DNA of 37,793 nucleotides from Bacteroidales bacterium (GTDB taxonomy: Bacteria; Bacteroidota; Bacteroidia; Bacteroidales; VadinHA17), in the NCBI GenBank assembly GCA_003141525.1, contig PLML01000240.1, forward strand, positions 1-37,793, in the 5' to 3' direction. This document shows positions 7,620 to 37,793 of the stretch, in pieces. The notes under the pieces were generated by a model. The model saw only the letters and a program-made list of their open reading frames with translations. It was not told where the DNA came from and searched no databases. How positions within the stretch are numbered: the stretch's first letter is position 1; each line of letters opens with the position of its first letter. The translations under genes were made by a program, and so were the position numbers.

Positions 7620-8333
7620 CTAATGGCTTATACTATCATAGTACCGGATTACAGGAACAAAACTCTCCGGTACCTTTTTTGAAATCTTTAACCTATTTTT
7701 CTTAATGAAATCTTTAATCTGAGTCTTATCCTGATATAAAATCTTTAATAAGTCACTTTTATTGTTGAGTTGATGAACTATTCCATCTTTCAGGAAGTAG
7801 ATACGAAATGATTCAATGAACAAATCGTACTTATCATCAACTGCAAGTAATTGAATTTCTTTCTTATACTTTACATATAACGCTGATTTCCCTTTATATA
7901 ATACGTTAACATATCCTTTGATGCCTGTCAGACTATCCTCAAGAGTATTCTTAAACATGTAAGTTTTAAATTCAAAGACCATAGTAAAACTGTCAACCAT
8001 TTCCTTGTTCAGTTGCAGAATTGAACCATTATTTGAAGTGGTTATGATCTCATCATTATAAATATCATAACTGATGCTTAAATTATTATACAATTTACCA
8101 TCAATTGTCAGTGAACCTTGTAAATATGCTTTTGAAAAAAGGAACTGATCCCCCTTGATATTATTATAAAGATTATGCCACAATTTGCCATTATAAAGAA
8201 TCTGATCTTCTTTAAGGGGAGATTTCTGACTTATCCGGGCAGGAAGAAGTTGGCCAAAACCCGGTATGCTGAAGAAACAAAAAACAGTAGAAATGAATAT
8301 TAAGAATAGGTAGAATAAATTATTTCTGTTCAT
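7620..8333 (-). CDS. secreted protein of unknown function, paralogue of 730-1446
   Basis: 237 residues, with a signal peptide at the N-terminus (MNRNNLFYLFLIFISTVF, cleavage near GFGQ). It shares with 730-1446 the blocks ILYNGKLWHNLY, GDQFLFS, ILQLNKEMVDSF, YVNVLYKG and a C-terminus with PESFVPVIRYYDSIS. There are no catalytic motifs, no lipobox and no internal membrane segment. It is the first gene of the minus-strand receptor operon, 10 nt before the receptor at 7609. Both the order and the 10-nt gap are repeated in the downstream copy, so the pair was duplicated as a unit. I do not recognise a named family. A periplasmic or surface accessory role for the receptor is an inference from position only. 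Confidence 0.82.
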   Translation of the reverse strand: MNRNNLFYLFLIFISTVFCFFSIPGFGQLLPARISQKSPLKEDQILYNGKLWHNLYNNIKGDQFLFSKAYLQGSLTIDGKLYNNLSISYDIYNDEIITTSNNGSILQLNKEMVDSFTMVFEFKTYMFKNTLEDSLTGIKGYVNVLYKGKSALYVKYKKEIQLLAVDDKYDLFIESFRIYFLKDGIVHQLNNKSDLLKILYQDKTQIKDFIKKNRLKISKKVPESFVPVIRYYDSISH

Positions 8334-14767: not shown

Positions 14768-14811
14768 GCAGCATGGTTTTATAATCATATATTAAAAAAT
14801 GATAGCTATTT

Positions 14812-21623: not shown

Positions 21624-22085
21624 TCAGATAAATACTACTTTATCCTTTACAACCTCATCTGCATCATTTGTCCCATAAATCTTTAAGCCTATGCTTGGGA
21701 TGGCACATTGCAATACATCTGCTATTGGGAAAAAAGCGTCTTTTATATCATCAAACTCCTCCAATTCATCAAATTCATCAACTGGTAAATACAGGTGAAA
21801 CATTAAAACATAATCAGGTTCATTAATCCTTGCAAGTACCTTAAATATTTTTGCAAGCCATAATGATGAGGAAGTATTGAAATATTCCAGATTGAGTCTC
21901 AGATTTGTCGTTGGTCTTGCATGCAGGATATATCCCGTTACCCAACTGAGTATAGGTTCATATACTTTGGCGGCGTTTTCAGGAATTGATTTCCCGGAGA
22001 AAATAAAGTCACCTGTAAATGGATTTAGTTCAACTTGCGGAGTTTTTGGTGTCTCTTCAATTATGAAACTTTGAATATCTTTCAT
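21624..22085 (-). CDS. SiaC-family (DUF1987) regulatory phosphoprotein
   Basis: 153 residues, cytoplasmic, no signal. The family pattern is clear: EETPKTPQVELNPFTGDF, then GKSIPENAAKVYEPILSWV, then NLRLNLEYFNTSSSLWLAKI, with Thr71/Ser72 in the YFNTSSS stretch as the expected phosphorylation site. In Pseudomonas aeruginosa, SiaC is phosphorylated by SiaB and dephosphorylated by SiaA, and it activates the diguanylate cyclase SiaD. No siaA, siaB or cyclase gene is next to it. It is convergent with the PD40 gene (48 nt) and diverges from the exopolysaccharide operon across 700 bp, so a link to control of that operon is possible but unproven. Confidence 0.85.
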   Translation of the reverse strand: MKDIQSFIIEETPKTPQVELNPFTGDFIFSGKSIPENAAKVYEPILSWVTGYILHARPTTNLRLNLEYFNTSSSLWLAKIFKVLARINEPDYVLMFHLYLPVDEFDELEEFDDIKDAFFPIADVLQCAIPSIGLKIYGTNDADEVVKDKVVFI

Positions 22086-22785: not shown

Positions 22786-23418
22786 ATGAGAAATAGTATT
22801 ACTATAGACAATCTGAATATTAGTAGCGATCAAAGAATTAATACTTTTGTTAATCTAGGCAACACTGCAACAGATTCACGCAAGAGTAATCCTGTTCTTA
22901 AAATGCTTGCTTCTGAAGGTTGTGAAAACTTTGCCAGGTATATTAAGCTGTTAGGGCTCGCAAAAGATTGCAATATGGTGGTTCTTTCTTCCCAGCACCA
23001 TTATTATTATGACGCTGAGGAGATGATTAATATAAAAACTGTTATTAACTTAAAGGAACTCAACCAGATAAAACAACTTAAGGAGTTCCTTCATTCAAGT
23101 TTCCATATTCTTCCGGCTAGCTGTAATTTTATTGGTTGTTTTGTCAACAATAGAAAGCAGAACGGTTTTGTATTGAGTACCGGTCCTTCGGACTCCTATT
23201 ATAAGAGGAATTCTGATGCTATAGAAAACGGTATTGTGTCAAGTAGCCCATTCTTGAACATGATATACAATATGATTGATTCAAAGACCAATAAATACAT
23301 GTCTGAACGAAGTGTTTCTTTTCTTTTAGGCGAACACGGTTTTAAAGTACTGGACATGACTGAAATTGATGGTTTGACATATTTCTATGCACAAAGCCTT
23401 CGGACTGCTGATAATTAA
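22786..23418 (+). CDS. hypothetical protein, first gene of the exopolysaccharide operon
   Basis: 210 residues with no signal peptide or membrane segment, so probably cytoplasmic. Visible features are a central KMLASEGCENFARYIKLLG helix region, a VVLSSQHHYYY motif with paired His and Tyr runs at about residues 67-75, and a C-terminal half with FLNMIYNMIDSKTNKYMS followed by FLLGEHGFKVLDMTEIDGLT and a FYAQSL ending. The last block loosely resembles the C-terminal strands of SAM-dependent methyltransferases, but the glycine-rich SAM motif is absent. It lies 76 nt before the initiating sugar transferase on the same strand. I do not recognise the family; a regulatory or assembly role in polysaccharide synthesis is a guess from position. 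Confidence 0.75.
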   Translation: MRNSITIDNLNISSDQRINTFVNLGNTATDSRKSNPVLKMLASEGCENFARYIKLLGLAKDCNMVVLSSQHHYYYDAEEMINIKTVINLKELNQIKQLKEFLHSSFHILPASCNFIGCFVNNRKQNGFVLSTGPSDSYYKRNSDAIENGIVSSSPFLNMIYNMIDSKTNKYMSERSVSFLLGEHGFKVLDMTEIDGLTYFYAQSLRTADN

Positions 23419-23494: not shown

Positions 23495-24946
23495 ATGGAT
23501 TTTATTAATTACCTGGAACGACTTAAGATAATTCCATTTTTAAAGAAATGGAAACTTTTAGGTATTGTACTTGGCTCAATTGACATCCTGGCGATTGCCC
23601 TGGCTTTCCAGTGCGCTTTTTATTTAAATTACCATGCGGAAGTAGATTTCTTTTTCTTAAAAAGCAGAACTCTTAAACTTTTTATTTTAATACTTCCTTT
23701 CTGGCTTGCGATTCTTTATTTAATACAAGTCGCTGAGATCCCAAGAACAAAGCGTTACAGCGTACTCTTTTACCAATATTTTCAATCGACTATTTTGGTC
23801 ATAACTCTTTTATTGATATTCTATTTTACTTTTAAGCTCTATTTGATTTCCCGTCTGTTCCTCATAGAACTTGCACTTTTTGGGCTCCTTTTCCTTTTCC
23901 TTGTAAGGTCATTAGAATATAAAGTCTTCAAGATTTACAGGGCAAAAGGATATAACTTTATAAACGTTGTTCTAATTGCTGACGATTCATCTATTCCTTT
24001 TATTGAAAGTCTGATTTCAAATAAGGAATGGGGATATAGAATAATTGCAATTTTTACCGGATCGGATAAAATTAAAGAAAAGTATGAAAAAGCGATTATC
24101 CTGTTACCGGATGAATATTTAGCTGTACTTAATGACCTGATGGAAGTTGATATAATTGATGAAGTAATTTATTTTAAAACCAAGGTGATACCGTCAGAAG
24201 TAAGAAGTACAGTCAGATCATGTGAAGAATTGGGAGTCGTTTTCAGCTTAAATTATACCGATCAGAATAATAAATTGACAAACGCTATAAAAACTATTAT
24301 TGGGAACCAGAAGTTCCTGACTTTTATTAATATTCCACATAATTCATTTGCACTGGCGATTAAGAAAATTATGGATATCGGTGTATCATTCTTAATGATA
24401 ATATGTCTCTCTCCTTTTCTATTAGTTATTTCCATTTTATTAAAAACAACTTCAAAGGGACCAATTATATTCAAACAGTCCAGGGTAGGTTTAAGAGGCA
24501 GACAGTTCAGTTTATATAAATTCAGGACCATGATTGTCAATGCGGAAGAGCTTAAAAAAGAACTTGAAACTGAAAATGAAATGGACGGACCCGTTTTCAA
24601 AATAAAGGATGATCCTCGTGTTACAAATATCGGGAAATTTCTTAGAAGAACAGGACTTGATGAGTTACCTCAGCTTTTTAATATCCTAAAAGGCGAAATG
24701 TCTTTGATTGGCCCGCGTCCTCCACTTCCTAGCGAGACTCAACAATATAAACGCTGGCAATTAAGACGTCTTTCTGTAAAACCCGGATTATCCTGTTTCT
24801 GGCAGATAAAACCTGACAGGAACAATATTAAATTTGAAAAATGGATGGAGTTAGACTTAGCCTATATTGATAATTGGTCGCTTCGATTAGATTTTATAAT
24901 TTTACTGAAAACTATTAGGACGGTTTTTCAGAGAACAGGCTTGTAA
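23495..24946 (+). CDS. polyprenyl-phosphate sugar-1-phosphate transferase (exopolysaccharide initiation)
   Basis: 483 residues in the inner membrane. The enzyme transfers a sugar-1-phosphate from a nucleotide sugar to undecaprenyl phosphate, the first step of polysaccharide synthesis (WcaJ/PglC-type superfamily). Four hydrophobic segments fall in about residues 22-42, 53-75, 90-112 and 118-135, followed by a CoA-binding-like domain (150-260). A membrane helix at about 288-310 leads into the catalytic domain: SRVGLRGRQFSLYKFRTM, GPVFKIKDDPRVT, then DELPQLFNILKGEMSLIGPR and KPGLSCFWQI. All typical motifs of the bacterial sugar transferase family are present. It starts the recognisable exopolysaccharide genes and is 20 nt upstream of the export lipoprotein. 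The sugar specificity, glucose or galactose, cannot be read from sequence. Confidence 0.93.
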   Translation: MDFINYLERLKIIPFLKKWKLLGIVLGSIDILAIALAFQCAFYLNYHAEVDFFFLKSRTLKLFILILPFWLAILYLIQVAEIPRTKRYSVLFYQYFQSTILVITLLLIFYFTFKLYLISRLFLIELALFGLLFLFLVRSLEYKVFKIYRAKGYNFINVVLIADDSSIPFIESLISNKEWGYRIIAIFTGSDKIKEKYEKAIILLPDEYLAVLNDLMEVDIIDEVIYFKTKVIPSEVRSTVRSCEELGVVFSLNYTDQNNKLTNAIKTIIGNQKFLTFINIPHNSFALAIKKIMDIGVSFLMIICLSPFLLVISILLKTTSKGPIIFKQSRVGLRGRQFSLYKFRTMIVNAEELKKELETENEMDGPVFKIKDDPRVTNIGKFLRRTGLDELPQLFNILKGEMSLIGPRPPLPSETQQYKRWQLRRLSVKPGLSCFWQIKPDRNNIKFEKWMELDLAYIDNWSLRLDFIILLKTIRTVFQRTGL

Positions 24947-24966: not shown

Positions 24967-25737
24967 ATGCAAAAGAAAATAAAGTATTGTTTGTACAAAG
25001 CGGGTGTCATTCTGACAGTGATTTTTACTGCCTCATGCGTACCTATAAAACAGATAGATTATTTCAACGATCTCAATGAACTTCAAGAACCTGTAGTTAA
25101 TCCAAGGATCCAGAAGCTAATTATGCCATTCGATAAACTTTATATTAAAGTAATAAGTATCGATCCCCAGACAAGTCAGATATTTAATGTTACCGAAGAG
25201 ATGAGGAGTGGAGGTAATAATGGTATACTCGGCTACCTTGTAGACGAATTGGGTAATGTTAATTTTCCTTTTGTTGGCAATATAAACGTGGTTAAACTAA
25301 CAACAGCTCAAGCTTCTGAAAAGATTCAGAAGGCGATGAATGATTATGTTTCCAATACCTCAATAATAGTCAAGTTTATTGATAATCAGGTAACGGTTAT
25401 GGGTGAAGTTCAGCGACAGGGAATCTACCCTTTTACACAGGATAAACTTAATATCTATGAAGCTTTGGGACTCGGCGGAGGACTTACCCAATATGGCGAC
25501 CGCAAGAAAATTATACTGGTTCGTAATGAAGGGGACAAGATTATGCATTACCGTTTAAACCTGTCAGATTCAAAAATTACAACTAAAGATTATTATTATA
25601 TTCTTCCAAATGATGTAATTGTCGTTGAACCATTGAAAGCTATCGCTTCAAGTTATCAGAATATAACTTATACAACAATACTCAGCTCAATAACAACCCT
25701 GATAGCCGTTCTGCTTTTTACAAACGTTAAATTTTAA
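24967..25737 (+). CDS. Wza-like polysaccharide export lipoprotein
   Basis: 256 residues. The lipoprotein signal peptide (VILTVIFTASC, Cys about residue 23) anchors it to the outer membrane. The polysaccharide export (poly_export) domain covers about 48-130 (DKLYIKVISIDPQ, then LVDELGNVNFPFVGNINVVKLTTAQASEKI). A SLBB-type domain follows from about 138 (VTVMGEVQRQGIYPFTQDKLNIYEALGLGGGLTQYGD). A hydrophobic C-terminal helix (about 230-252, ILSSITTLIAVLLF) may span the outer membrane, as in Wza. It forms the export pore for the polysaccharide. It is 20 nt after the sugar transferase and 17 nt before the Wzc-like kinase, the classic order. Confidence 0.94.
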   Translation: MQKKIKYCLYKAGVILTVIFTASCVPIKQIDYFNDLNELQEPVVNPRIQKLIMPFDKLYIKVISIDPQTSQIFNVTEEMRSGGNNGILGYLVDELGNVNFPFVGNINVVKLTTAQASEKIQKAMNDYVSNTSIIVKFIDNQVTVMGEVQRQGIYPFTQDKLNIYEALGLGGGLTQYGDRKKIILVRNEGDKIMHYRLNLSDSKITTKDYYYILPNDVIVVEPLKAIASSYQNITYTTILSSITTLIAVLLFTNVKF

Positions 25738-25754
25738 AATAAATATTTCATTAA

Positions 25755-28124
25755 ATGTCATATCAAAAAGAATCTACATCTGAAGCTTATAATATCAAGG
25801 AATTTATATTATCAGCTTTACCTTATAAATATTTCTATTTAGCCAGTTTTGTGGTCTGCATAGCTGTTGCTTTTATGATTAACAAGTTATCACCAACAAT
25901 AGTCAGGGTAACTTCCATAATCGGACCTATTGAGGATAAGCGTCCATCATTAAGGGGATCAAACAATCTTTTCAATGGAATCGGAGATTATTCCCAGGTG
26001 AGGAATCTTGAAAACGATATAAATAGTCTATCTTCATTTAGTCTGATCTCCACAACTATTAGAACAATGAATCTTGAAATAGGATATTATACAGATAAAA
26101 AAAACATATTCGGACATTCACGTCAGAATTACCTCGGATCTCCTTTTACTGTAAATATTGACAAATCTCACATTCAACCTATCAATACAAGATTTTATAT
26201 TAAAATTATTGATGATAAGTCTTACAGATTAAAATCTTCGGAAAAAGAAGTTATACTGTATAATTATGTTGATAACTATATTGTAAGCAAGCAAAATTTC
26301 CTAAAAATAGACACAATATGCAAATTTAATGAAACTGTACAAAATAAGAATTTTAAGTTCTCAATATCCCAAAATAAAGATATTTATGCCTCTGGCGAAA
26401 AAAATGAAAATCTTTTATACTTTGAGTTTTATCATCAGGATTTACTTTCACAACAATATCTTAAACGACTTAAAGTTGAACCTGTCAGCGCCAAATCTTC
26501 ATTGATAAAAGTCTCGTTTCAGGGAGAAAACATTGGTTTGACAATTGACTTTTTGAACAACTACCTTCAAGCCTATTTAGACGATGACCTATCAAAAAAA
26601 AATAAAATCGCATTAAGTACTATAAATTTTATAGATTCACAGATTTCTGAGATATCTGATTCACTTACGAAGTCTGAATCAAAATTAAAGGATTATCGGT
26701 CTGTTAACCAGGTTACGAATCTTAGTTACCAGGGACAGCAGGCGTTGGAACAGATGACAAGAATAGAAACAGAGAAGTCCACCCTTATGGTACAGGAGCG
26801 CTATTATAAATATATATTGGACTATTTCGATAAGAATAAGGATGTGGCCGGACTCGCCCCTCCCTCTTCAGCAAATGTTGTTGATCCTTTAATGACCACT
26901 CTGGTAACTGAGCTTTTATCGCTTAATGCACAAAAAGCAAGCATATTAAGCAATAATTCCGAAAAAAATCTTTTCCTGGGACAAATCGAGAATAAGATTA
27001 AAACACAGAAACAGGCAATTATTGAGAATGTAACTAATAGCCTTAACACTTTGAATCTTACTCAAAATGAGCTGAACTACCGCTCTGAAAGACTTTCAGG
27101 GGAGATTTCCAAATTGCCGAGGACTGAACTTAATATGGTCAGTATGCAGCGAAAATTCAATCTGAGCGATGCGATTTATACTTTCTTGCTTCAGAAGCGA
27201 TCTGAAGCTCAGATCACAATGGCTTCAAATATTCCTGATTATGAGATCATGGAACCAGCTCGTGAAACCTCAAGAATCATCCTGTCACCCAGAACAATGA
27301 TAAACTACCTGGTAGCACTGTTTCTTGCGTTTTTGGGTCCTTCACTTTTCATTATTCTGAAAAACTACTTTAACGAAAAGATAACTTCCATCTCTGATGT
27401 CCGGAACCTGATAGACCGAGATGTTTTTGGAATTATTTATAGCAATATATATAAAACTGAATCTGTTGTACCTGAATTTCCCGGTTCTTCAATAGCAGAA
27501 TCATTTAGAAACTTACGCAGTAGGATATTCCTTAGATTAAGATCGCAGCCGTCAAAAGTAGTTTTGGTCACATCTGCTCAGCCACGGGATGGAAAAAGTT
27601 TTATCGCATATAACCTGGCTGCTTCAATAGCATCTGTTGGTTATAGTACAATTATTTTGGATTGCGATTTGCGAAGACCAACACTTCATCTGAAATTTAA
27701 GGAAAATAACTCATCGGGTCTTTCTGTTTATATGGACAAACATTCATCAATTGATGATATCATCCTCAAAACTTATGTCAAGAATCTTTCTTTTATTCCT
27801 GCCGGCCCACAAATGCCAAATCCATCTGAATTAATGGAGTCAGGAATTCTTGATGATCTGATCGTTTCTCTTAAAAGCAGATATGAGTATATTATTCTTG
27901 ATACTACACCTGCCGGAATAGTTGCAGATGCTTCACTGATGATGAAACATGCAGCAGAAATACTAGTAGTATGCAGGAATAATTATACAAGGAAAGATCT
28001 ATTCTCTGAGGTTATAAATAATCTTAATACAAATAAATTTACAAATTTTGATATAGTATTTAATGATCTTGATTTAAAAAGGAGTAAGTACGGGGCGTAT
28101 AACAGCTATTATCACAAAGAATAA
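25755..28124 (+). CDS. Wzc-like polysaccharide co-polymerase with tyrosine kinase domain
   Basis: 789 residues in the inner membrane. Two membrane helices (about 27-43 and 516-535) flank a large periplasmic region with coiled coil (about 290-450) of the Wzz/GumC type. The cytoplasmic BY-kinase domain has EXXRXXR at 582-588 (ESFRNLR) and a Walker A SAQPRDGKS at 607-615. Walker A' is ILDCDLRRP at about 634-642 and Walker B IILDTTP at about 713-719. The C-terminal tail has a short Tyr cluster (YGAYNSYY at 779-786) suited to autophosphorylation. BY-kinases control chain length and export of polysaccharide together with Wza. The tail is shorter than in Escherichia coli Wzc. No phosphatase (wzb-like) gene is in the operon. 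Confidence 0.94.
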   Translation: MSYQKESTSEAYNIKEFILSALPYKYFYLASFVVCIAVAFMINKLSPTIVRVTSIIGPIEDKRPSLRGSNNLFNGIGDYSQVRNLENDINSLSSFSLISTTIRTMNLEIGYYTDKKNIFGHSRQNYLGSPFTVNIDKSHIQPINTRFYIKIIDDKSYRLKSSEKEVILYNYVDNYIVSKQNFLKIDTICKFNETVQNKNFKFSISQNKDIYASGEKNENLLYFEFYHQDLLSQQYLKRLKVEPVSAKSSLIKVSFQGENIGLTIDFLNNYLQAYLDDDLSKKNKIALSTINFIDSQISEISDSLTKSESKLKDYRSVNQVTNLSYQGQQALEQMTRIETEKSTLMVQERYYKYILDYFDKNKDVAGLAPPSSANVVDPLMTTLVTELLSLNAQKASILSNNSEKNLFLGQIENKIKTQKQAIIENVTNSLNTLNLTQNELNYRSERLSGEISKLPRTELNMVSMQRKFNLSDAIYTFLLQKRSEAQITMASNIPDYEIMEPARETSRIILSPRTMINYLVALFLAFLGPSLFIILKNYFNEKITSISDVRNLIDRDVFGIIYSNIYKTESVVPEFPGSSIAESFRNLRSRIFLRLRSQPSKVVLVTSAQPRDGKSFIAYNLAASIASVGYSTIILDCDLRRPTLHLKFKENNSSGLSVYMDKHSSIDDIILKTYVKNLSFIPAGPQMPNPSELMESGILDDLIVSLKSRYEYIILDTTPAGIVADASLMMKHAAEILVVCRNNYTRKDLFSEVINNLNTNKFTNFDIVFNDLDLKRSKYGAYNSYYHKE

Positions 28125-28178
28125 AAATACTTGAACTATTTCCCCATTTATCTACATAATTTGTTTACAATTTCATCT

Positions 28179-28439
28179 ATGGAGCAAGACGTTTTAACAA
28201 TCAAACAGAAGATTAATCAATATGTTTTACAAAATACATTTGCTGAAAAACTTAAAATTCAGGACGATTCTTTAATTTTTAAAGAGGGGTATTTTGATTC
28301 TATGGGATTTATAATGTTAATCACATTTATAGAAGAAGAATTTGCATTAAAGACGAGTGATTCTGACCTTATAGAGGAAAATTTTGAATCAATCAACGCA
28401 ATAACTTCTTATATTATCAGGAAGAAATCAAAGCAGTAG
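28179..28439 (+). CDS. acyl carrier protein (phosphopantetheine-binding)
   Basis: 86 residues from the ATG at 28179. A TTG at 28131 would add 16 residues that do not look like the family, so the ATG is preferred. The chain is acidic and helical and contains the carrier motif FDSMGF, with Ser41 as the predicted phosphopantetheine attachment site, flanked by FKEGYF and an EEEFALK helix. It is free-standing rather than fused to a synthase. It lies directly upstream of an AsnB-like amidotransferase and in one operon with an AMP-forming ligase, which is the obvious enzyme to load it. This is probably not the housekeeping AcpP: the motif context is DSMGF rather than the DSLD of the fatty-acid carrier. 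It likely holds a substrate during a modification step. Confidence 0.9.
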   Translation: MEQDVLTIKQKINQYVLQNTFAEKLKIQDDSLIFKEGYFDSMGFIMLITFIEEEFALKTSDSDLIEENFESINAITSYIIRKKSKQ

Positions 28440-28470
28440 ATTAAAATTCTACATATTTAACCCAAATAAG

Positions 28471-30468
28471 ATGTGCGGAATAGTCGGGATTTATAATAGT
28501 GCGGGTACTTTACGCAGTCCCCAGGCCCTATTGGTGAGGATGCTAGCGCGTATACAATATCGGGGACCCGACGAAAGTGGTATCTACATTAATAAGAATG
28601 CTGCTCTTGGTAGTGTTCGCCTAAGCATTATTGATATTAAATCCGGACAGCAACCTCTTTCATCTGAGGACGGAAAATACTGGATTGTATTTAATGGAGA
28701 AATTTTCAATTATATTGAGCTTAAGGCTGACTTAAAACATCTTGGATATTCTTTCAGAACCGAATGTGATACAGAAGTATTATTAAATGCCTACCTGGAA
28801 TATGGATCGGATTGTTTGAATAAGTTAAATGGCCAATTTGTATTTGCTATCTGGAATAATGAGAAGAAAGAATTATTCCTGGCCCGCGACAGGGTGGGAA
28901 TACGACCTCTTTTCTACACTCAGACGGAGAACAATACTTTTATATTTGGATCAGAGATCAAAACACTTTTTGAACACCCTGATGTCAAACCTGAAATTGA
29001 TCCGGTTTCAATGTCACAGGTTTTCACCTTCTGGTCCACTATCACACCCAGAACAATTTTTAAACATATCTTTGAGTTGGCTCCTGGTAACTTTATGAAA
29101 ATATCACATGGAAAAACAACGATTCAATCATTCTGGTCTCTCAAATTTCCCGTTGAAAAAGAAGCCTATTTTAAAGGAACAATAAATGAAGCAGCAGAAG
29201 AACTGAAAAGAATACTTACAGATGCAGTCAGGATCAGGCTCCGGGCCGATGTACAGGTTGCAGCTTACCTTAGCGGTGGACTTGATTCAAGTGCTACTAC
29301 GGCATTAATTAAAAAGGTTGAACCAGAAACCCTTCAAACCTTCTCCATTGGCTTTGAAGACGGTGAGTTTGATGAAACATCTTACCAGCAGGAAGTTTCA
29401 AAATACCTAGGAACACGACACACCTCGTTTACCTGTACCAGGAAAGATATTGGCAATTATTTCCCACAGACAGTATGGCATTCAGAGATACCAATATTAC
29501 GTACTGCACCGGTTCCTATGTTCTGCCTGTCTAAAAAGGTTAGAGAAAACAATATTAAAGTAGTTGTAACGGGGGAAGGTGCTGACGAAATGCTTGCCGG
29601 ATATGATATTTTTAAGGAAGGAATCATCCGTGAATTCTGGTCACGTCAACCTAATTCAAAATACAGACCCTTGCTTTTACAAAAGTTATATCCCTACCTT
29701 GCACAATTCCAGGGAAAGAACAAAAGTATGCTAAAGTTCTTTTTTGGATATCAGCTTCACAATACTGCCTCCCCGTTCTATTCTCATGTACTGAGGTGGA
29801 GAAACACTTCAAGTATCCAGAATTTTTTCTCAGAGGATTTAAAATCCGATCTGGACGGATTTGATCAATATGAAGAGGTGAGAAAAATGCTCCCGGCAGA
29901 TTTTGATCAGTACGATCGTTTAAACAAATCGCAATGGCTTGAATCGTCAATTTTCATGTCAAGCTATCTTCTATCCTCTCAGGGTGATCGCGTTGGCATG
30001 GCCAATTCAGTGGAAGGACGATATCCATTTCTTGATTACAGGGTTATGGAATTTGCTGCTAAACTTCCTCCAGATTATAAGATGCACGGGCTCAATGAAA
30101 AGTTCATCCTGAAACGTATGATGAATAACCGTCTGCCTGAAAGTGTTTTGAAAAGGCCGAAACAGGCCTACAGGGCACCCATGGCTGGCAGTTTTTTGTC
30201 ATCACCCGCCAGGGAATATGTTATGGATCTGCTTTCTGAACATGATATTAATAAAAACGGGCTGTTCTCCTATAATGCAGTTCATAAATTACTAAATAAG
30301 ATATCGACAGGAGAATTGGTCACTGAGATGGAAAACATGGCTCTTTGCGGAATTATTTCCTCACAACTTATTTATCACCAATATATTTTAAAAGATAAAT
30401 TCAGGCCCTCAATTCCGCACTTAAATAATTGTCGTATTATTCATGAACAAAATCCAATCTATTCCTGA
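28471..30468 (+). CDS. AsnB-like glutamine-dependent amidotransferase
   Basis: 665 residues, cytoplasmic. Class II glutamine amidotransferase domain with catalytic Cys2 (MCGIVGIYNS), RGPDESG at 31-37, and FNGEIFNY at 74-81. The synthetase domain has the PP-loop YLSGGLDSSATTALI with SGGLDSS at 268-274, and later TGEGADEMLAGYD. Such enzymes activate a carboxylate with ATP and replace it with an amide using ammonia from glutamine. It is somewhat longer than the usual 550-620 residues of primary asparagine synthetases, and its operon context (carrier protein before, NadE-like synthetase after) argues for a specialised substrate. Exosortase-A-associated polysaccharide clusters contain comparable amidotransferases together with an AMP ligase and a carrier protein. 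The substrate here is unknown. Confidence 0.9.
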   Translation: MCGIVGIYNSAGTLRSPQALLVRMLARIQYRGPDESGIYINKNAALGSVRLSIIDIKSGQQPLSSEDGKYWIVFNGEIFNYIELKADLKHLGYSFRTECDTEVLLNAYLEYGSDCLNKLNGQFVFAIWNNEKKELFLARDRVGIRPLFYTQTENNTFIFGSEIKTLFEHPDVKPEIDPVSMSQVFTFWSTITPRTIFKHIFELAPGNFMKISHGKTTIQSFWSLKFPVEKEAYFKGTINEAAEELKRILTDAVRIRLRADVQVAAYLSGGLDSSATTALIKKVEPETLQTFSIGFEDGEFDETSYQQEVSKYLGTRHTSFTCTRKDIGNYFPQTVWHSEIPILRTAPVPMFCLSKKVRENNIKVVVTGEGADEMLAGYDIFKEGIIREFWSRQPNSKYRPLLLQKLYPYLAQFQGKNKSMLKFFFGYQLHNTASPFYSHVLRWRNTSSIQNFFSEDLKSDLDGFDQYEEVRKMLPADFDQYDRLNKSQWLESSIFMSSYLLSSQGDRVGMANSVEGRYPFLDYRVMEFAAKLPPDYKMHGLNEKFILKRMMNNRLPESVLKRPKQAYRAPMAGSFLSSPAREYVMDLLSEHDINKNGLFSYNAVHKLLNKISTGELVTEMENMALCGIISSQLIYHQYILKDKFRPSIPHLNNCRIIHEQNPIYS

Positions 30469-30485
30469 TTAACTTTAAATCAATT

Positions 30486-31466
30486 ATGAAAAATAAAAGG
30501 CCATTCAGTAAAGATATTCTGATAATTGAAGATATAGGAGCAGAATGTGAAAGAATAGTCACCGGCATTCGGGAAAATGTTTTGCATCGCCTGCACCGTA
30601 TTGGGGGCGTAATTGGGATATCAGGAGGTATTGATTCATCTGTTTCCATGGCTCTTGCTGCTAAAGCACTTGGAACTGAAAATTTGTTGGGGATCATGTT
30701 ACCTGAGCAGGATTCGAGTGGAGACAGTGCCAGATTTGCACAAAAACTGGCCGATAAATTTGGCGTAAAAGCCATTACAGAAAATATAACAGGGGCATTG
30801 AAGGGATTCGGATGCTATATACGTCGTGACGAGGCTGTCAAGAAAGTTTTACCGGAATATGATCCCGATCATTACAAAATGAAAATTGGAATCAGTAATT
30901 CGGGTCTTTATACTAATCTTCCGCCTCTTTTTTCACTCACAATAGTTGATAGTAAAAGTAATCAACAATCAAAACGATTGCCCCCAAATGAACTCAGACA
31001 GATCGAAGCTGCCTCAAATTTTAAACAGCGCTGCCGTATGTCTATGCTTTATTATCATGCAGAACGCCTTCACTATGCGGTAATTGGGACACCCAATAAG
31101 CATGAAATTGAACAAGGATTTTTTGTCAAGAACGGTGATGGTGGGTCAGATATTATGCCAATTGCTCATCTCTACAAAACGCAGGTATATCAACTGGCAC
31201 ACTACCTTGGTATCCCAAACGAAATTATTGAACGTACGCCGACCTCTGATACATATTCAGCTGAACAGACCCAGGAGGAGTTTTTCTTCCAGCTGCCATT
31301 TCAGCAAATGGACCTGCTCTGGTATGCTTTTAAAAACGGGTACGACCCGCAGGAAGTTGGAATTGTTATGGACAGAACCGCAGATGAAATAGAAAAAGTA
31401 TTTGGCGGTTTTGAACGTAAAATTAAAACGACAGAATACCTGCGAATGCCACCTCTTAGCTTCTAA
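30486..31466 (+). CDS. NadE-like (NAD+ synthetase family) amide-forming enzyme
   Basis: 326 residues, cytoplasmic. The family core is clear: PP-loop GISGGIDSS (SGGIDSS at 46-52), NFKQRCRMSMLYYHAE at about 178-193, GTPNKHE at 201-207 and KNGDGGSDIMPIAHLYKTQV at 215-234. True ammonia-dependent NAD+ synthetases are about 250-280 residues. Here an extra segment of roughly 50 residues lies between about 105 and 175. In the tail, TPTSDTYSAEQTQEEFFFQLPF replaces the usual ADLW..QTDE block. Both changes suggest a substrate other than deamido-NAD. It has no fused glutaminase domain; the neighbouring AsnB-like enzyme could provide ammonia, or the enzyme may use free ammonia. It sits 17 nt after that gene and 15 nt before the ligase. 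Confidence 0.85.
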   Translation: MKNKRPFSKDILIIEDIGAECERIVTGIRENVLHRLHRIGGVIGISGGIDSSVSMALAAKALGTENLLGIMLPEQDSSGDSARFAQKLADKFGVKAITENITGALKGFGCYIRRDEAVKKVLPEYDPDHYKMKIGISNSGLYTNLPPLFSLTIVDSKSNQQSKRLPPNELRQIEAASNFKQRCRMSMLYYHAERLHYAVIGTPNKHEIEQGFFVKNGDGGSDIMPIAHLYKTQVYQLAHYLGIPNEIIERTPTSDTYSAEQTQEEFFFQLPFQQMDLLWYAFKNGYDPQEVGIVMDRTADEIEKVFGGFERKIKTTEYLRMPPLSF

Positions 31467-31481
31467 TCTTTTATTCAGACA

Positions 31482-33059
31482 ATGATTAAGATACCACAGC
31501 GCTTACTTGGTGAGGCACTATTATTCTCTGCCCGGGAACATCCCTCAAAAACTGCTATTATAATAAAGACAAAGGAATATTCATATTCCTGTCTTAAAGA
31601 ATGCTCAGAAAAGCTGGCAGGTCATTTAGTACTTGCAGGTATTAAAAAAGGAGACAGGGTTGCTGTTTATATGAACAACTCCTGGCAAAGCATAGTTTCG
31701 ATTTACGGTATAACACTGTCCGGTGCAGCATTTCTGGTAATTAATCCTCAGACCAAAGCTGATAAATTACAATATATACTTAATGACAGTGGTGCTAAAA
31801 TATTGATTTCAGAAGGCATTCTAAGTAATGAACTATCACAAGCATTAGGAGGTTCGACAGACATTCAGGAAGTAATAATTATCGGAGACATTCGTAGACT
31901 AACAAGGCTCCCCAGTATTAAATTAGAAGATTTTGAAAATTTAGTTTCAGATACTAACCCTGCAATAGTTTTACCTAAAATCATCCCAAATGATCTGGCT
32001 GCTTTAATATATACTTCGGGCAGCACAGGATTTCCCAAAGGAGTAATGATGACACATCAATCAATGGTCTTTACTTCATGGAGCCTTATCGAATATTTGA
32101 GATTATCGGAGGAGGATCGTATAATATTGTTGCTGCCGCTTGCATTTGACTATGGATTATACCAGCTTCTTATGGCAATTACTATAGGTGGTTCACTGAT
32201 TGTGGAGCAATCAATTACCTTTCAAGCATCCGTTTATAAACAAATTGAGATATTTAAACCAACTGTTTTCCCTGGCGTACCGACAATTTATGCCATGATG
32301 ATTGCTGCAAATAAGAATTCGGGACTGTCTTTTAATTGTATAAAAAAAGTTACAAATACTGCAGCTGCCTTGCCAGCAGAATTCATTCCGGATCTTAAAA
32401 AAATATTTCCTGAAGCATTAATATTTAAAATGTACGGATTAACCGAATGTAAGAGAGTATGTTATCTGGAACCTGAATTAATTGATTTTAAAACAGATTC
32501 AGTCGGAAAAGCGATACCGGGAACTGAAGTCTTCTTATTATCGCTTGAAGGGAACCCGGTACAACCAGGTGAGCGGGGCATTTTGCATATTCGTGGACCC
32601 CACGTTATGTTAGGCTATTGGCATAAAGAAGAACTTAGCAGGCAAATGCTCAAGCAAGGTAATCTTCCAGGTGAAAGAATCTTATGCTCAAACGATTGGT
32701 TTAAAATGGATGAAGAGGGTTTTTTATATTTTCTCGGCAGAACTGATGATATAATTAAAACAAGAGGAGAAAAAGTCAGTCCGGCAGAAATTGAAAACAC
32801 TATATATAAAATTGAGGGGATTAAAGAAGTTGCAGTTATCGGTATTCCTGATGAAATTTTGGGAGAATCAATCATTGCCTATGTTACAACACATGGTCAT
32901 TTACAGATAGGAGAAAAGGATATACAAAAAGAATGCATGTCCAGCCTGGAGTTGTTCATGGTTCCCCAGCATATAATATTTTTAGATGAGATGCCAAAAA
33001 GTTCTAATAGTAAGATTGATAAAAAAGAACTTAGAAAAATGTATTTGAAAAATGAATAA
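31482..33059 (+). CDS. AMP-forming acyl/aminoacyl ligase (ANL superfamily)
   Basis: 525 residues, cytoplasmic. Adenylating motifs in order: YTSGSTGFPKGV at 177-188 (P-loop), MYGLTECKR at 317-325, DWFKMDEEGFLYFLGRTDDIIK at about 405-426, and a C-terminal Lys511 in SNSKIDKKEL as the catalytic lysine. The ECKR and SVGKAIPGTEV pattern is reminiscent of the AMP ligases associated with exosortase-A polysaccharide clusters (TIGR03098 type). It probably activates a carboxylic or amino acid and transfers it to the carrier protein at 28179-28439. Its stop overlaps the start of the methyltransferase by 8 bp, so the two are coupled. Fatty-acyl-CoA ligase activity cannot be excluded. Confidence 0.9.
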   Translation: MIKIPQRLLGEALLFSAREHPSKTAIIIKTKEYSYSCLKECSEKLAGHLVLAGIKKGDRVAVYMNNSWQSIVSIYGITLSGAAFLVINPQTKADKLQYILNDSGAKILISEGILSNELSQALGGSTDIQEVIIIGDIRRLTRLPSIKLEDFENLVSDTNPAIVLPKIIPNDLAALIYTSGSTGFPKGVMMTHQSMVFTSWSLIEYLRLSEEDRIILLLPLAFDYGLYQLLMAITIGGSLIVEQSITFQASVYKQIEIFKPTVFPGVPTIYAMMIAANKNSGLSFNCIKKVTNTAAALPAEFIPDLKKIFPEALIFKMYGLTECKRVCYLEPELIDFKTDSVGKAIPGTEVFLLSLEGNPVQPGERGILHIRGPHVMLGYWHKEELSRQMLKQGNLPGERILCSNDWFKMDEEGFLYFLGRTDDIIKTRGEKVSPAEIENTIYKIEGIKEVAVIGIPDEILGESIIAYVTTHGHLQIGEKDIQKECMSSLELFMVPQHIIFLDEMPKSSNSKIDKKELRKMYLKNE

Positions 33060-33966
33060 ATCAGAACTATTTAGCAGTATCAGTAATGATTTAAAAAACA
33101 AACTTCATCTACTTGAAGATAAACCGGAAGAGACAATAGAATCAACATTGAAAGCCCTGTGGTTAGCTGCAGCAGGTATTCCGGTTTCTGCAGAAGGTTC
33201 AACTAAATTGTCAATTCCTGATCTGACGGAAAAACAGATAGAGAATTTGCATCAATTAATTGAACTAAGACTAAACAACACTCCCCTTGCGTATATTACA
33301 AATCGGCAAAATTTTATGGGGATTGAATTATATTCTGACAAGAGAGCTTTAATCCCAAGGAAAGAAACTGAATTATTAGGCAGAACAGCCTTGGAACTTT
33401 CCAAAAGAATTGCCAAATCAAAGGGTAAAATAAATGTTATCGATGTTTGTTGTGGATCAGGAAATTTGGGCATAGCTATAGCTCATCACAATAAAGATTG
33501 CAATGTTTATGCCTCGGATATTTCACAGGAAGCTGTGGAACTCACCCGGGATAATATCAATTTATTGAATTTAAACCAGCGTATACAAGTCAAACAAGGA
33601 AATTTATTGTCTGTATTTGAAACAGATGAGTTTTATGAAAAAACTGACATGATTATCTGTAATCCTCCTTATATACTAAGTTCGAAAGTCCAAAAAATGG
33701 ATTCAGAAATTACATCTAATGAGCCCGTCCTGGCTTTTGATGGTGGTATGCTTGGCATAAAAATAATTCAAAAATTAATTTCTGAGGCACCTAAGTTTTT
33801 AACAAGCGAAGGCTGGTTGATTTTTGAGGTCGGGGCAGGACAAGGCAATTTTATAACACAACTCTGCGAAAGGTCTCGGTTATATCAGGCAATTGAATCC
33901 GTTTCAGATGATTCAGGCACTGCAAGGGTCATATTGGCCCAAAAATTAAGACCTTCCAACTCTTAA
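33052..33966 (+). CDS. PrmC/HemK-like SAM-dependent methyltransferase with NPPY motif
   Basis: 304 residues, cytoplasmic. The N-terminal helical domain (about 1-85) ends in PLAYITNRQNFMGIEL and LIPRKETELL at 100-109, both typical of PrmC/HemK. SAM motif I is DVCCGSGNLGIAI at 131-143; ASDIS follows at 154-158; the catalytic NPPY is at 204-207. PrmC methylates the glutamine of the GGQ loop of release factors. A paralogue at the end of a polysaccharide operon, without prfA beside it, suggests another amide substrate. The product of the neighbouring amide-forming enzymes would be a logical target. The ATG overlaps the ligase stop by 8 bp. It is the last gene of the operon. It could still be the housekeeping prmC, which a genome search would show. 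Confidence 0.88.
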   Translation: MNKSELFSSISNDLKNKLHLLEDKPEETIESTLKALWLAAAGIPVSAEGSTKLSIPDLTEKQIENLHQLIELRLNNTPLAYITNRQNFMGIELYSDKRALIPRKETELLGRTALELSKRIAKSKGKINVIDVCCGSGNLGIAIAHHNKDCNVYASDISQEAVELTRDNINLLNLNQRIQVKQGNLLSVFETDEFYEKTDMIICNPPYILSSKVQKMDSEITSNEPVLAFDGGMLGIKIIQKLISEAPKFLTSEGWLIFEVGAGQGNFITQLCERSRLYQAIESVSDDSGTARVILAQKLRPSNS

Positions 33967-34028: not shown

Positions 34029-34991
34029 TTAATTTCTATTTTTTTCTTTATTCACGAAGTTAAAGATCCTTATACCCAAGGATAACTGGTGACTGCCGTA
34101 GGAATATATAAATACATCATTGATTATGTTATATGAATAGTTAAGTATAATACCGTCATATATTTCACCCCCTAATCCTAAACCAAATATTCCACCAGTT
34201 CTGAAGAGTGTTGTTCCCCAGAAGCGGTTATTCCATATTATGCTGGAACCTATTTCAACCTGCATGGGGATATTCTGTCCTCCCCTCAGGATAAAACTTG
34301 GTTTAGCAGACCAACTATTGTCTAGCACAAATAAATATGATCCATGTAAAAGGTAATTTTTCAATGGTTTATATGTCAGGTTGGTATTACGGTATCTTGC
34401 TGAACCAAACATTATATTTGAGAAAAGAATTCCAGCTTCAACCTGCTTGTATCTGTATAGCGCACTTACATCAGTAGCAAATTTCACTTTTGATTTTTCC
34501 AGACCAACAGTAAGTGCCGCATCCTGGACATATTTCGGATCATTATAATACTTTCCAAGGTCAACTGAATTCCAGTAAAATCCTGCAGACAAAGCAAAAT
34601 TGACTTTCTGATCTTTTGCAATCCTTATTTCATAAGCATATGTTCCAAGGAAAAGCGTTTGCTTGAAAATATCAGTTTTATCATATATGAATCTTCCTCC
34701 CAGACCCACACTGTTCTTGAATATATCAGACTGATCATAAATGAAGTCCCCTCCCAGTTTTTTCTTTTCAGGTAACTTATCATTGTAACTAAGTTCGTAT
34801 GTTGTCGGAGCTCCCGCAAGACCAGACCAGTCAGAACGATAATCAATAAAAAGGGTTTTACTATTATGAATTCCGGCATATGCGGGTGAAAGACTAAAAG
34901 GATTAACATTGTATCCTTCCATAAACGGAAACTGTTGTCCGAATAGAACCGATGGGATAAGTACAATTAGTATAATTATTACTCTTTTCAT
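34029..34991 (-). CDS. PorP/SprF-family outer-membrane protein (partner of the adhesin)
   Basis: 320 residues with a signal peptide (MKRVIIILIVLIPSVLFG, then QQ). The mature start FMEGYNVNPFSLSPAYAGI has the NP...PAYAG signature of PorP/SprF, followed by alternating beta strands (DYRSDWSGLAGAPTTYELSY and others) ending in HQLSLGIRIF. PorP/SprF members assist type IX export and surface attachment of type B cargo, the best-known case being SprF for the gliding adhesin SprB. It lies only 18 nt downstream of a giant repeat protein with a type B C-terminal domain, so the two are almost certainly a cargo-exporter pair. It is only distantly similar to the PorP-like protein at 19063-20034. Confidence 0.9.
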   Translation of the reverse strand: MKRVIIILIVLIPSVLFGQQFPFMEGYNVNPFSLSPAYAGIHNSKTLFIDYRSDWSGLAGAPTTYELSYNDKLPEKKKLGGDFIYDQSDIFKNSVGLGGRFIYDKTDIFKQTLFLGTYAYEIRIAKDQKVNFALSAGFYWNSVDLGKYYNDPKYVQDAALTVGLEKSKVKFATDVSALYRYKQVEAGILFSNIMFGSARYRNTNLTYKPLKNYLLHGSYLFVLDNSWSAKPSFILRGGQNIPMQVEIGSSIIWNNRFWGTTLFRTGGIFGLGLGGEIYDGIILNYSYNIINDVFIYSYGSHQLSLGIRIFNFVNKEKNRN

Positions 34992-35009: not shown

Positions 35010-37793
35010 CTATCTTACAATATTTACCACACCAGTAATGAAACCCTTGGCAGAAGATTTGATCAGGTAATAGTATGAGGCCGAGGGAAGAGGATATCCC
35101 TTCCATTTTCCGTCCCAATCATTTTTATAACTATTTGAATGGTAAACAACCTGTCCAAACCGGTTGTAAACTGTCACCTCTATAGAGCCATATTGCTCAA
35201 GGTCAGAGATATACCAGTAATCGTTCATCCCATCATTGTTCGGAGTAAAAAGTGACGAGATCCCATCAAACGTAGGAAAAGTAACTATTGATTGGGATGC
35301 ATCAGGTGCCGGATTCCAGTTATGATCACCTTCCTGTATTGCCATGATTGTCAGATTGCCATCTTTCTGTACTGTCAGAATATTATCATTCAAACTGGCG
35401 ATATTGGGATCGGATAATTCAAAACTCACAACTAAACCGCTTGATGCAGTAGCATGCAGTCCGTATTCCTGTGTCATCCTTAAACCAGCAGGTATGGGTG
35501 CAAAATCGATAACCTGATCAGCTTTCGTTATATTTAGAGTACCTTTTTTATAAATAAAATTATAATTTGAATCAGCAGCCTCTGTAATGCTAATGTCATA
35601 ATCTCCAGCATCTGAATTCAAATTCGCTGCAGTTTCTGCAGCTGGAAGTATTTTGAGAACACTTTGATCCTGATCAAGCACAAAACCTGCATAGGTTATT
35701 GTAAGATCAGGATTTGCTGCTCCGTAAACTTTAGTCTTATTATCAGCTGTGACGGTCAACGGAGCTTTAACAATATTCAGGCTTCCGTTCACCAGAATTA
35801 AGCTATAGTCTTTATCACTACCACCTGAAAGTACAATGCTATATGATCCTGCATTGCTTGTACTCAGAGCAGTTGTCGAAACAACAGGTAATGCATCAAG
35901 TACTGAAGTATTTTCTCCTTTTATAAAACCTGTATAGCTAATCGTTAAGGGCGGGTTATCAGATCCATAAACTTTCGTTTTGTCATCAGCTTTTGCTGTA
36001 AGTATTGCTTTATTTACTATCATTATACCACTGACATAGGTGAAGATGTAATTATTATTTGTCCCTCCACCTACTGAAATGACGTATGTTCCAACAACAG
36101 CCGAAGCATCTGCCCCGGGGCTGCTGAGTGTGATACCTGAAATTGTATCTCCGCTTACCAGTCCTACTGCTTTATATTCCGATCCTGTAAAAGTCAAGCT
36201 GGATCTATAAGCCTTTGTGAGATCATTAGCAATGATTGTCAAGGCTTTAGCTGATATATTGGCGATTAATGCTGGTTGAGTTAATGTGTAATTGCCTGCA
36301 TCTGTTCCTTCAAGCGTAAAACCTGATGTCGAAACTATCTTTCCAGTGCCGACATTTTTGCTAGAAAAGGTTCCAGTAGCTGTCGAAGATACCAGGTTAA
36401 CAACATCCCCTCCAAAAATACCATGAAGGGTTACGCTTCCAGCATTCAATGTAGCTACTGTTGTACCGTCATATACTTTATTATTGGCCGTTACACCTGA
36501 TACTGTCAGTGAGGCTATCGTGATATCAGCAGCTACTGTTGGCTGTGTCAATGTATAATTAGCCGCATCATTTCCTCCAAGTGATAACCCTGATGTTGAT
36601 ACCACTTTGCCTGTACCAACATTCTTATTCACAAAAGTCCCTGTGGCGCCTGTTGTGATAAGGGTAACAACATCTCCTCCTAAAACTCCTGCAATGGCTG
36701 CGATTCCTGTATTAAGCGTCGCTGCTGTACTGCCATTATAAACTTTGTTATTAGCTGTTACGCCTGTTACTGTTATAATAATACCTGTTATATTGGCAGT
36801 AGTTGTTGGTTGTGTAAGAGTATAATTGGCAGCATCACTACCTCCGATAGAAAAGCCTGACATAGTTACAACTTTGCCCGTTCCAACATTCTTATTTGAA
36901 AAGGTTCCTGTTACACCCGTTGAGATAAGGGTAACCGCATCCCCTCCAAAAACTCCTACAAGCCCGGCACTGCCAGTATTCAGAGTCGCCGCTGTGATCC
37001 TGTCATATACTTTGTTATTGGCTGTCACTCCTGACACTGTCAGTCCGGCTTTCGTGATATTTGCTGTTGCCGTTGGCTGTGTCAGCGCATAATTGGCTCC
37101 ATCAGCACCTCCTAGAGTTAAGCCTGATATTGAGACTGATTTGCCCGTGCCAACACTCTTGTCCACAAAGGTTCCCGTCGCTCCTGTTGATACCAGGGAA
37201 ACAACATCTCCGCTAATTACACCTGCAAGCGTGGTGCTTCCAGTATTCAGCGTAGCTACTGATGTACCATCATATACTTTATTGTTGACAGTTACACCTG
37301 ATACAGTCAGTGAGGCTATCGTGATATTAGCAGTTGCAGTTGGCTGTGTCAATGTATAATTAGCCGCATCATTTCCTCCAAGTGAAAAGCCTGATGTTGA
37401 TACCACTTTGCCTGTACCAACATTTTTATTCGCAAAAGTCCCTGTGGCGCCTGTTGTGATAAGGGTAACAACATCTCCTCCTAAAACTCCTGCAATGGCT
37501 GCGATTCCTGTATTAAGCGTCGCTGCTGTACTGCCATTATAAACTTTGTTATTAGCTGTTACGCCTGTTACTGTTATAATAATACCTGTTATATTGGCAG
37601 TAGCTGTCGGCTGTGTAAGAGTATAATTGGCAGCATCACTACCTCCGATAGAAAAGCCTGACATAGTTACAACTTTGCCCGTTCCAACATTCTTATTTGA
37701 AAAGGTTCCTGTTACACCCGTTGAGATAAAGGTAACCGCATCCCCTCCAAAAACACCCACAAGTCCGGCATTGCCAGTATTCAGAGTCGCCGC
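35010..37793 (-). CDS. YDG/MBG-repeat surface adhesin with type B type IX sorting domain (N-terminus off right edge)
   Basis: At least 927 residues; the frame is open to the window edge with no start inside. Reading from the N-terminal side, the chain has five-plus YDG-type repeats of 89 residues (each with GVTANNKVY, GTFxxKNVGTGK and NYTLTQP; 36255-37793). Three MBG-type domains follow at about 35520-36254, two with a DxKTKVYG motif. Next comes an interdomain stretch and then a C-terminal domain of about 85 residues (LFTPNNDGMNDYW, VYNRFGQVVY, WDGKWKGYPLPSASYYYLI), ending in VVNIVR. This last domain is the gliding-motility-associated type B sorting signal recognised by type IX secretion. It is presumably a long filamentous surface adhesin, exported with the PorP-like protein 18 nt downstream. 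Confidence 0.93.
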   Translation of the reverse strand, partial: AATLNTGNAGLVGVFGGDAVTFISTGVTGTFSNKNVGTGKVVTMSGFSIGGSDAANYTLTQPTATANITGIIITVTGVTANNKVYNGSTAATLNTGIAAIAGVLGGDVVTLITTGATGTFANKNVGTGKVVSTSGFSLGGNDAANYTLTQPTATANITIASLTVSGVTVNNKVYDGTSVATLNTGSTTLAGVISGDVVSLVSTGATGTFVDKSVGTGKSVSISGLTLGGADGANYALTQPTATANITKAGLTVSGVTANNKVYDRITAATLNTGSAGLVGVFGGDAVTLISTGVTGTFSNKNVGTGKVVTMSGFSIGGSDAANYTLTQPTTTANITGIIITVTGVTANNKVYNGSTAATLNTGIAAIAGVLGGDVVTLITTGATGTFVNKNVGTGKVVSTSGLSLGGNDAANYTLTQPTVAADITIASLTVSGVTANNKVYDGTTVATLNAGSVTLHGIFGGDVVNLVSSTATGTFSSKNVGTGKIVSTSGFTLEGTDAGNYTLTQPALIANISAKALTIIANDLTKAYRSSLTFTGSEYKAVGLVSGDTISGITLSSPGADASAVVGTYVISVGGGTNNNYIFTYVSGIMIVNKAILTAKADDKTKVYGSDNPPLTISYTGFIKGENTSVLDALPVVSTTALSTSNAGSYSIVLSGGSDKDYSLILVNGSLNIVKAPLTVTADNKTKVYGAANPDLTITYAGFVLDQDQSVLKILPAAETAANLNSDAGDYDISITEAADSNYNFIYKKGTLNITKADQVIDFAPIPAGLRMTQEYGLHATASSGLVVSFELSDPNIASLNDNILTVQKDGNLTIMAIQEGDHNWNPAPDASQSIVTFPTFDGISSLFTPNNDGMNDYWYISDLEQYGSIEVTVYNRFGQVVYHSNSYKNDWDGKWKGYPLPSASYYYLIKSSAKGFITGVVNIVR
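36255..37793 (-). repeat. 267-bp tandem repeats organised in an 801-bp higher-order unit
   Basis: Tandem 267-bp coding units begin at 36255, 36522, 36789, 37056, 37323 and 37590 (the last cut by the edge). They encode the 89-residue YDG repeats. Units differ from neighbours but match the unit three places away: segments shifted by exactly 801 bp are nearly identical, including more than 150 identical bases starting at 36641 and 37442. This indicates recent duplication of a three-unit block. Confidence 0.9.

Follow-up and report, generated by a model that had tools for sequence, protein, structure and literature searches.

A recurrent gene cassette joining a carrier protein, an AMP-forming ligase, and two amide-forming enzymes, with an optional PrmC-like methyltransferase, behind exopolysaccharide genes of a Bacteroidales bacterium

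Contig PLML01000240.1 from a Bacteroidales bacterium (assembly GCA_003141525.1), analyzed here as a whole stretch of 37,793 nucleotides that we call the window, carries five contiguous genes on the forward strand, placed behind wcaJ-wza-wzc. In order, they encode a free-standing carrier protein of the peptidyl/acyl carrier type (28179-28439; PF00550, 22.1 bits; a TTG start at 28131, giving a longer frame, is likewise open); an AsnB-type glutamine amidotransferase/amide synthetase (28471-30468; TIGR01536, 516.3 bits over a cut-off of 267.1); NadE2, a NadE-like ammonia-dependent synthetase of the NF002048/PRK00876 subfamily (30486-31466; NF002048, 415 over 313); an AMP-forming ligase resembling amino acid adenylation enzymes (31482-33059; PF00501, 280 bits); and PrmC2, a PrmC/HemK-like N-methyltransferase (33052-33966; TIGR03534 and also TIGR00536), whose gene overlaps that of the ligase by 8 bases. 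The Pfam families of the first four genes are, in order, PP-binding, Asn_synthase with GATase, NAD_synthase, and AMP-binding. Upstream on the same strand are genes for a wcaJ-like initiating sugar-phosphate transferase (23495-24946; TIGR03025, 353.7 bits over 295.55), a wza-like polysaccharide export protein (24967-25737; PF02563, 46.6 bits), and a wzc-like chain-length/tyrosine kinase (25755-28124; TIGR01007, 157.8 bits). An earlier note on this DNA, made from its letters alone, had described such a five-gene run after wza/wzc-like genes, and the Pfam and NCBIfam matches uphold the identities that it assigned.

What is conserved is a core of four genes, asnB, carrier, ligase, and nadE2, as evidenced by the neighborhoods of NadE2 genes in other genomes. 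Of 296 genomes sampled from the window's phylum, 12 carry the NF002048 subfamily, the window's own included, as do 30 of 397 genomes of one proteobacterial order; a scan of species genomes supplied 47 NF002048 loci (L045 to L091), with ordinary NadE from L092 on, among the matches listed. Locus genes were found by tblastn and by conservation-scored reading frames. Within 7 kb of NadE2, at least one of asnB, ligase, and carrier is present at every phylum locus (11 of 11), at every order locus (31 of 31), and at 42 of the 47 scan loci. The total is 84 of 89 fetched loci, or 82 of 87 without the duplicates (L164 of L054 and L154 of L090), versus none of 34 ordinary nadE loci (L092 to L124 plus the window genome's own). 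All three partners were found at 5 phylum, 23 scan, and 16 order loci (n = 11, 47, and 31, respectively), and several absent partners fall at contig ends. Co-occurrence of the neighborhood proposed in the earlier note is therefore conserved, but for the core four genes rather than for five, the methyltransferase being optional. We found no published description of the asnB-carrier-ligase-nadE set in a literature search that missed most subscription journals.

Other genes also recur at these loci. A GNAT-like gene is present in the fetched region of 20 of 31 order loci, mostly directly before asnB, and L158 holds a compact operon with the order prmC2-GNAT-asnB-carrier-ligase-nadE2. The putative assignment to tandem GNATs draws on weak Pfam matches (two of nine proteins over a cut-off, and none for the L163 member) and on a structure model of the L055 member (predicted local distance difference test [pLDDT], 87.9), which matched tandem-GNAT N-myristoyltransferases with a template modeling (TM) score of about 0.5. 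Separately, a methylmalonyl-CoA-epimerase-like VOC gene recurs in the cassette loci L035, L036, L045, L062, L073, and L083.

The catalytic motifs of the cassette proteins look intact in alignments. The serine of the carrier's DS motif is conserved in all 72 aligned carriers, and among solved structures, the best relatives of the carrier are peptidyl carrier proteins of the stand-alone kind, followed by PltL, with D-alanyl carriers lower. In AsnB, Cys2 is cysteine in 72 of 75 aligned rows (three gaps), the SGGLDSS serine is kept in 74 of 75 (one gap), and the GEGADE glutamate is kept in 73 of 75 (two gaps); Arg325 of the ligase is kept in 75 of 76 rows. The same genome holds a separate housekeeping nadE (contig C154, 236.1 bits), a housekeeping prmC (C166, 219.8 bits), and another full asnB (C88, 441.2 bits), and because of these copies, the possibility raised in the earlier note, that the NadE-like and PrmC-like genes might be the only housekeeping ones, falls away.

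According to the accessible part of one report, deletion of the AsnB-like sidA of the siderochelin pathway leads to a carboxylate instead of a carboxamide; like the cassette, this pathway places an AsnB-like carboxamide enzyme alongside an AMP ligase and a discrete carrier, whereas its product is a siderophore and not an exopolysaccharide (EPS), and neither NadE2 nor PrmC2 was seen in that part of the report (PMC11481915). A role of AsnB-type genes in polysaccharide phenotypes also has second-hand support, in that a further paper cites asnB/asnH as required for floc formation (PMC7662799).

NadE2 also scores over the cut-off of TIGR00552 (154 versus 63.65), and it resembles the NadE NAD+ synthetases, after which NF002048/PRK00876 is named NAD(+) synthase, in its fold and in its retained ATP-pyrophosphatase residues. 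Unlike canonical NadE, it is a second copy in the genome, it carries an insertion (residues 114-156 and 162-168 relative to canonical NadE), and it departs from the canonical consensus at G255D, L256T, E263Q, and T214V, in a comparison of 59 NadE2 with 31 canonical NadE proteins where the canonical set consists of weaker matches of the same scan. An AlphaFold2 model of NadE2 (pLDDT, 91.4) folds the insert region (about residues 110 to 168) into a helix and three strands, and its closest solved folds are NadE enzymes, including 3fiu, titled nicotinamide mononucleotide (NMN) synthetase. Because of the changed canonical positions, the insertion, and these nearest folds, we read NadE2 as a NadE that acts on a new substrate. 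A precedent for an altered substrate in this fold is the Francisella NadE-family NMN synthetase (PDB 3fiu). The name NAD(+) synthase probably misleads for NF002048, since at most examined loci the subfamily appears to be part of a polysaccharide-associated biosynthetic cassette. At L060, L071, and L075, NadE2-like genes lie beside Rrf2- and acetate-kinase-like genes and not in a cassette, and NF002048 perhaps has another function there.

PrmC2 is an optional fifth gene that is tied to one ligase subtype. It shares its fold family and its NPPY motif with the PrmC/HemK release-factor glutamine methyltransferases, and it is unlike them in forming a separate clade, in its linkage to the cassette, and in a presence that follows a ligase motif. 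The clade comprises 18 rows, drawn from the window, a further Bacteroidales metagenome-assembled genome (MAG), and a number of genomes from proteobacteria and other groups, and it is split from 12 housekeeping PrmC rows at a support of 100/99; L174 (genome G602) was left out of this tree because its reading frame was not found by pattern. Seven of seven genomes (G296 to G302) hold PrmC2 plus a higher-scoring, over-cut-off housekeeping PrmC elsewhere, and two genomes without PrmC2 have a single PrmC match each. In the proteobacterial order of G296, PrmC2 was found in 15 of 30 NadE2-positive genomes (278 to 376 bits; one of the 15 contributed a row to the search profile) and in none of 30 genomes sampled from the 367 NadE2-negative ones, where the top match reached 155 bits. 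Of the 15 genes, 12 are no more than 6 kb from nadE2, one is 25 kb away, and two are on other contigs. The ligase gene and prmC2 are adjacent in the window, L051, and L173. The prmC-like gene within L070 was dropped as a PrmC2 candidate because of its alignment with housekeeping PrmC (26% identity), and a true PrmC2 is present on another contig of that genome. In three PrmC2-bearing cassettes (L136, L147, and L149), a second adenylate-forming-like frame stands just before nadE2.

The ligase motif in question is the A4 motif. The top solved-structure matches of the ligase are adenylation domains of nonribosomal peptide synthetases (NRPSs), and its D223 aligns with the conserved aspartate of these domains, which we take to be the amino-group ligand. 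In the ligase alignment, the triplet A221-F222-D223 (codons 32142-32150, forward strand) tracks PrmC2: AFD stands at 221-223 in 24 of 24 ligases from PrmC2-positive genomes and in 0 of 52 from PrmC2-negative genomes, 17 of which read SFD and the others different triplets, so that PrmC2 presence matches A221-F-D223 in 76 of 76 aligned rows. These rows include the duplicate locus pair L090/L154 and one genome with two cassettes (L134 and L163) and omit L164, from the same genome as L054; loci whose ligase is absent or shorter than 380 residues (L034, L035, L042, and others) generally fall outside them. In a tree of 52 ligases, which covers the clade around the window's ligase and excludes residues 219-226, PrmC2 and AFD each change seven times, always jointly, and they agree in seven of seven independent pairs (sign test, 0.0156); L163, L155, and L080 had been removed from the 73-row ligase tree.

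The AFD motif was picked after inspection of the data, which tells against the link, and all 525 positions of the window ligase were therefore scanned. Residue 221 is the best single predictor (48 of 52; the runner-up reaches 40), and of 8911 admissible residue pairs, 221 with 223 alone reaches 52 of 52. Positions in NadE2, AsnB, and the carrier reach at most 0.78, versus 0.92 for ligase residue 221. Of three further PrmC2-bearing genomes, G736, checked afterwards, agrees with the link, having an AFD ligase with prmC2 12 bases downstream. As PrmC2 tracks the A4 motif and no position in NadE2, AsnB, or the carrier is of similar strength, a small substrate is probably shared by ligase and PrmC2.

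The two genes may also share a history. The window's asnB, carrier, and nadE2 are closest to Bacteroidota cassettes (52 to 63% identity to L045), while its ligase is 28 to 33% identical to those of L037, L038, and L045 to L049 and 44 to 52% identical to those of L051, L070, and L173. Because the nearest relatives of the ligase differ from those of the other three, the ligase and prmC2 may have traveled together. In the ligase tree, the cassette of L061, a record titled Bacillus subtilis SK6B4, nests among alphaproteobacterial ones, and the record is probably mislabeled.

We propose, with confidence no better than even, that the cassette is a carrier pathway for an amide-bearing, here N-methylated, acyl or aminoacyl unit, most likely decorating the wcaJ-wza-wzc polysaccharide. 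A pathway of carrier, ligase, amide enzymes, and N-methyltransferase, as the earlier note suggested, remains the best reading. We infer the chemical steps, their order, and the acceptor from the protein families. The AMP ligase would activate a carboxylic acid and load it onto the free-standing carrier; for the AFD subtype, an amino acid is the probable choice, given the alignment of D223 with the amino-group-binding aspartate of adenylation domains. AsnB, using ammonia from glutamine, and NadE2, as a substrate-switched NadE, would make one or more carboxamides, and PrmC2 would methylate that amide, given that the NPPY-type site in its relatives acts on amide nitrogens. The most likely sequence would start from an amino-acid-like acid and run through amide formation, N-methylation by PrmC2, carrier loading by the ligase, and transfer to a sugar. 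In the simplest version, methylation would precede loading, and a change of Ser221 to Ala would admit the methyl group. In many proteobacterial cassettes, the operon's tandem-GNAT acyltransferase would transfer the group.

A more specific proposal is tentative. It holds that this is a new EPS-linked pathway for amino acids with an N-methylated carboxamide, in which PrmC2, a methyltransferase of the PrmC fold, acts on a small molecule rather than on a protein, NadE2 makes the carboxamide, and a Ser-to-Ala change at the position two before the adenylation aspartate tunes the ligase for the methylated substrate. NadE2 could then act on a carrier-bound acid or on a nucleotide-activated uronic acid, a compound similar to nicotinate adenine dinucleotide. 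If true, PrmC-type methyltransferases would extend from proteins to small molecules, and an amide decoration in the exopolysaccharides of soil, sludge, and sediment bacteria would be explained. The covariation of PrmC2 with the ligase provides a testable handle on the substrate, namely, the acid that is loaded by AFD ligases and not by SFD or YYC ligases.

Several observations weigh against these proposals. Five of the 47 scan loci have no partner gene at all, and the window's AsnB passes the plain asparagine synthase model (TIGR01536). No acyltransferase or GNAT was recognized in the window's operon, and no GNAT-family search of the window's genome was made. Regarding the ligase motif, 51 of 52 is attained by three further pairs of residues, and A221 alone is concordant in just four of seven pairs (p = 0.125). 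Genome G722, which disagrees with the link, has a PrmC2, with one stop flagged in the matched frame, and a cassette without a ligase; its best ligase elsewhere reads SFD, and an AFD ligase was not found. In the PrmC2-positive genome G301, which counts neither for nor against the link, the contig ends in nadE2, and a YYC-type ligase lies on another contig. The genome of L052 has an intermediate match of 192.5 bits that was scored as PrmC2 negative and would, if it is a PrmC2, be one case of SFD with PrmC2; a match of 163.9 bits in the genome of L065 was scored in the same way. Gaps in MAGs may hide PrmC2 at L056, L067, and L085.

Somewhat unlikely, in our judgment, is that the same enzymology yields a secreted small metabolite of a peptide-like or chelating kind, with the wza/wzc neighbors incidental. 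Stand-alone pairs of adenylation enzyme and carrier are characteristic of natural-product pathways, wcaJ is the sole glycosyltransferase recognized among the scanned window genes, and no tested EPS marker was found at 18 of 32 scan loci and 20 of 27 order loci with NadE2 that are longer than 15 kb, which also counts against the polysaccharide acceptor. Conversely, EPS-type genes do lie near NadE2 at 7 of 10 phylum loci, 7 of the 27 order loci, and 14 of the 32 scan loci longer than 15 kb, versus 0 of 24 canonical nadE loci, a contrast drawn with a marker set that came partly from the NadE2 loci themselves. Moreover, the order wza-wzc-carrier-asnB-nadE2 is identical in the window, L045, and L091, and there is no recurring transporter or condensation enzyme.

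It is improbable that PrmC2 modifies a pathway protein instead of a small molecule, for instance at a glutamine in the carrier, NadE2, or an export protein. Experimentally characterized PrmC/HemK relatives methylate glutamine in proteins, and the window's PrmC2 still passes the release-factor model TIGR03534 (209.5 versus 199.1), unlike the other PrmC2 matches in the comparison of G296 to G302, none of which attained that cut-off. The strongest covariation, however, is with the A4 motif of the ligase and not with the carrier, NadE2, or AsnB. Several alphaproteobacterial PrmC2 frames, including those of L055 and L064, have no region aligning to the PrmC N-terminal domain; the window's PrmC2 has an N-terminal stretch, yet its model matches begin at residue 57 to 61.

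The cassette is related both to the exosortase-A (XrtA/PEP-CTERM) set, which likewise combines a ligase, an amidotransferase, and a carrier in exopolysaccharide loci, and to stand-alone adenylation/carrier pairs. PltF/PltL and DltA/DltC resemble it in ligase and carrier sequence matches, in the aligned aspartate, and in the DS serine, and the cassette differs from them in being joined to two amide-forming enzymes and a PrmC-like methyltransferase. By curated cut-offs, it lies outside the exosortase-A set. Although TIGR03098 and TIGR03108 rank high among the matches of the ligase and AsnB, the window ligase scores 428.2 against the exosortase-A ligase model TIGR03098 (cut-off, 592.35) and its AsnB scores 453.5 against the amidotransferase model TIGR03108 (cut-off, 816.9). 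Exosortase-A sets include a pyridoxal phosphate (PLP)-dependent decarboxylase; NadE2 and PrmC2 are, to our knowledge, not part of them. The absence of an exosortase in the window, remarked on in the earlier note, is confirmed for the genome (93.7% complete), which has no match to Exosortase_EpsH (PF09721) at an E value of ≤0.001. Plain membership was rejected on these cut-offs and this search, and an ordinary exosortase-A set is a distinctly poor explanation here. The claim that exosortase-A systems do not explain the cassette holds for the window's ligase and AsnB but not everywhere, since the cassette of L052 lies beside an exosortase W gene and the ligase of L062 passes TIGR03098 (598.4 versus 592.35).

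That NadE2 and PrmC2 are an extra NAD synthase and release-factor methyltransferase landed here by chance, as the curated names of the matching models and the three NadE2 genes beside Rrf2- and acetate-kinase-like genes might suggest, was ruled out as extremely improbable by the separate copies in the genome, the control loci of the neighbor test, and the lack of PrmC2 in the sampled NadE2-negative genomes.

Around the cassette, the EPS operon is headed by a gene for a 210-residue protein with no Pfam or NCBIfam match (22786-23418); two tandem relatives of it (about 41 to 42% identity) precede wcaJ in L045. Just upstream, on the opposite strand, is a gene for a SiaC-family regulatory phosphoprotein (21624-22085; PF09345), a possible regulator of the polysaccharide operon. 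Downstream of prmC2 are a PorP/SprF gene (34029-34991) and, adjoining it, a gene for a long repetitive secreted protein (35010-37793) that runs off the contig end. Paralogous proteins with near-identical C-terminal sequence and no Pfam match are encoded at 730-1521 and 7620-8333. Two alpha-L-fucosidases and a family-2 glycoside hydrolase (8476-9873, 13415-14788, and 16419-18845) make up a glycan-degrading neighborhood to the left of the EPS operon.

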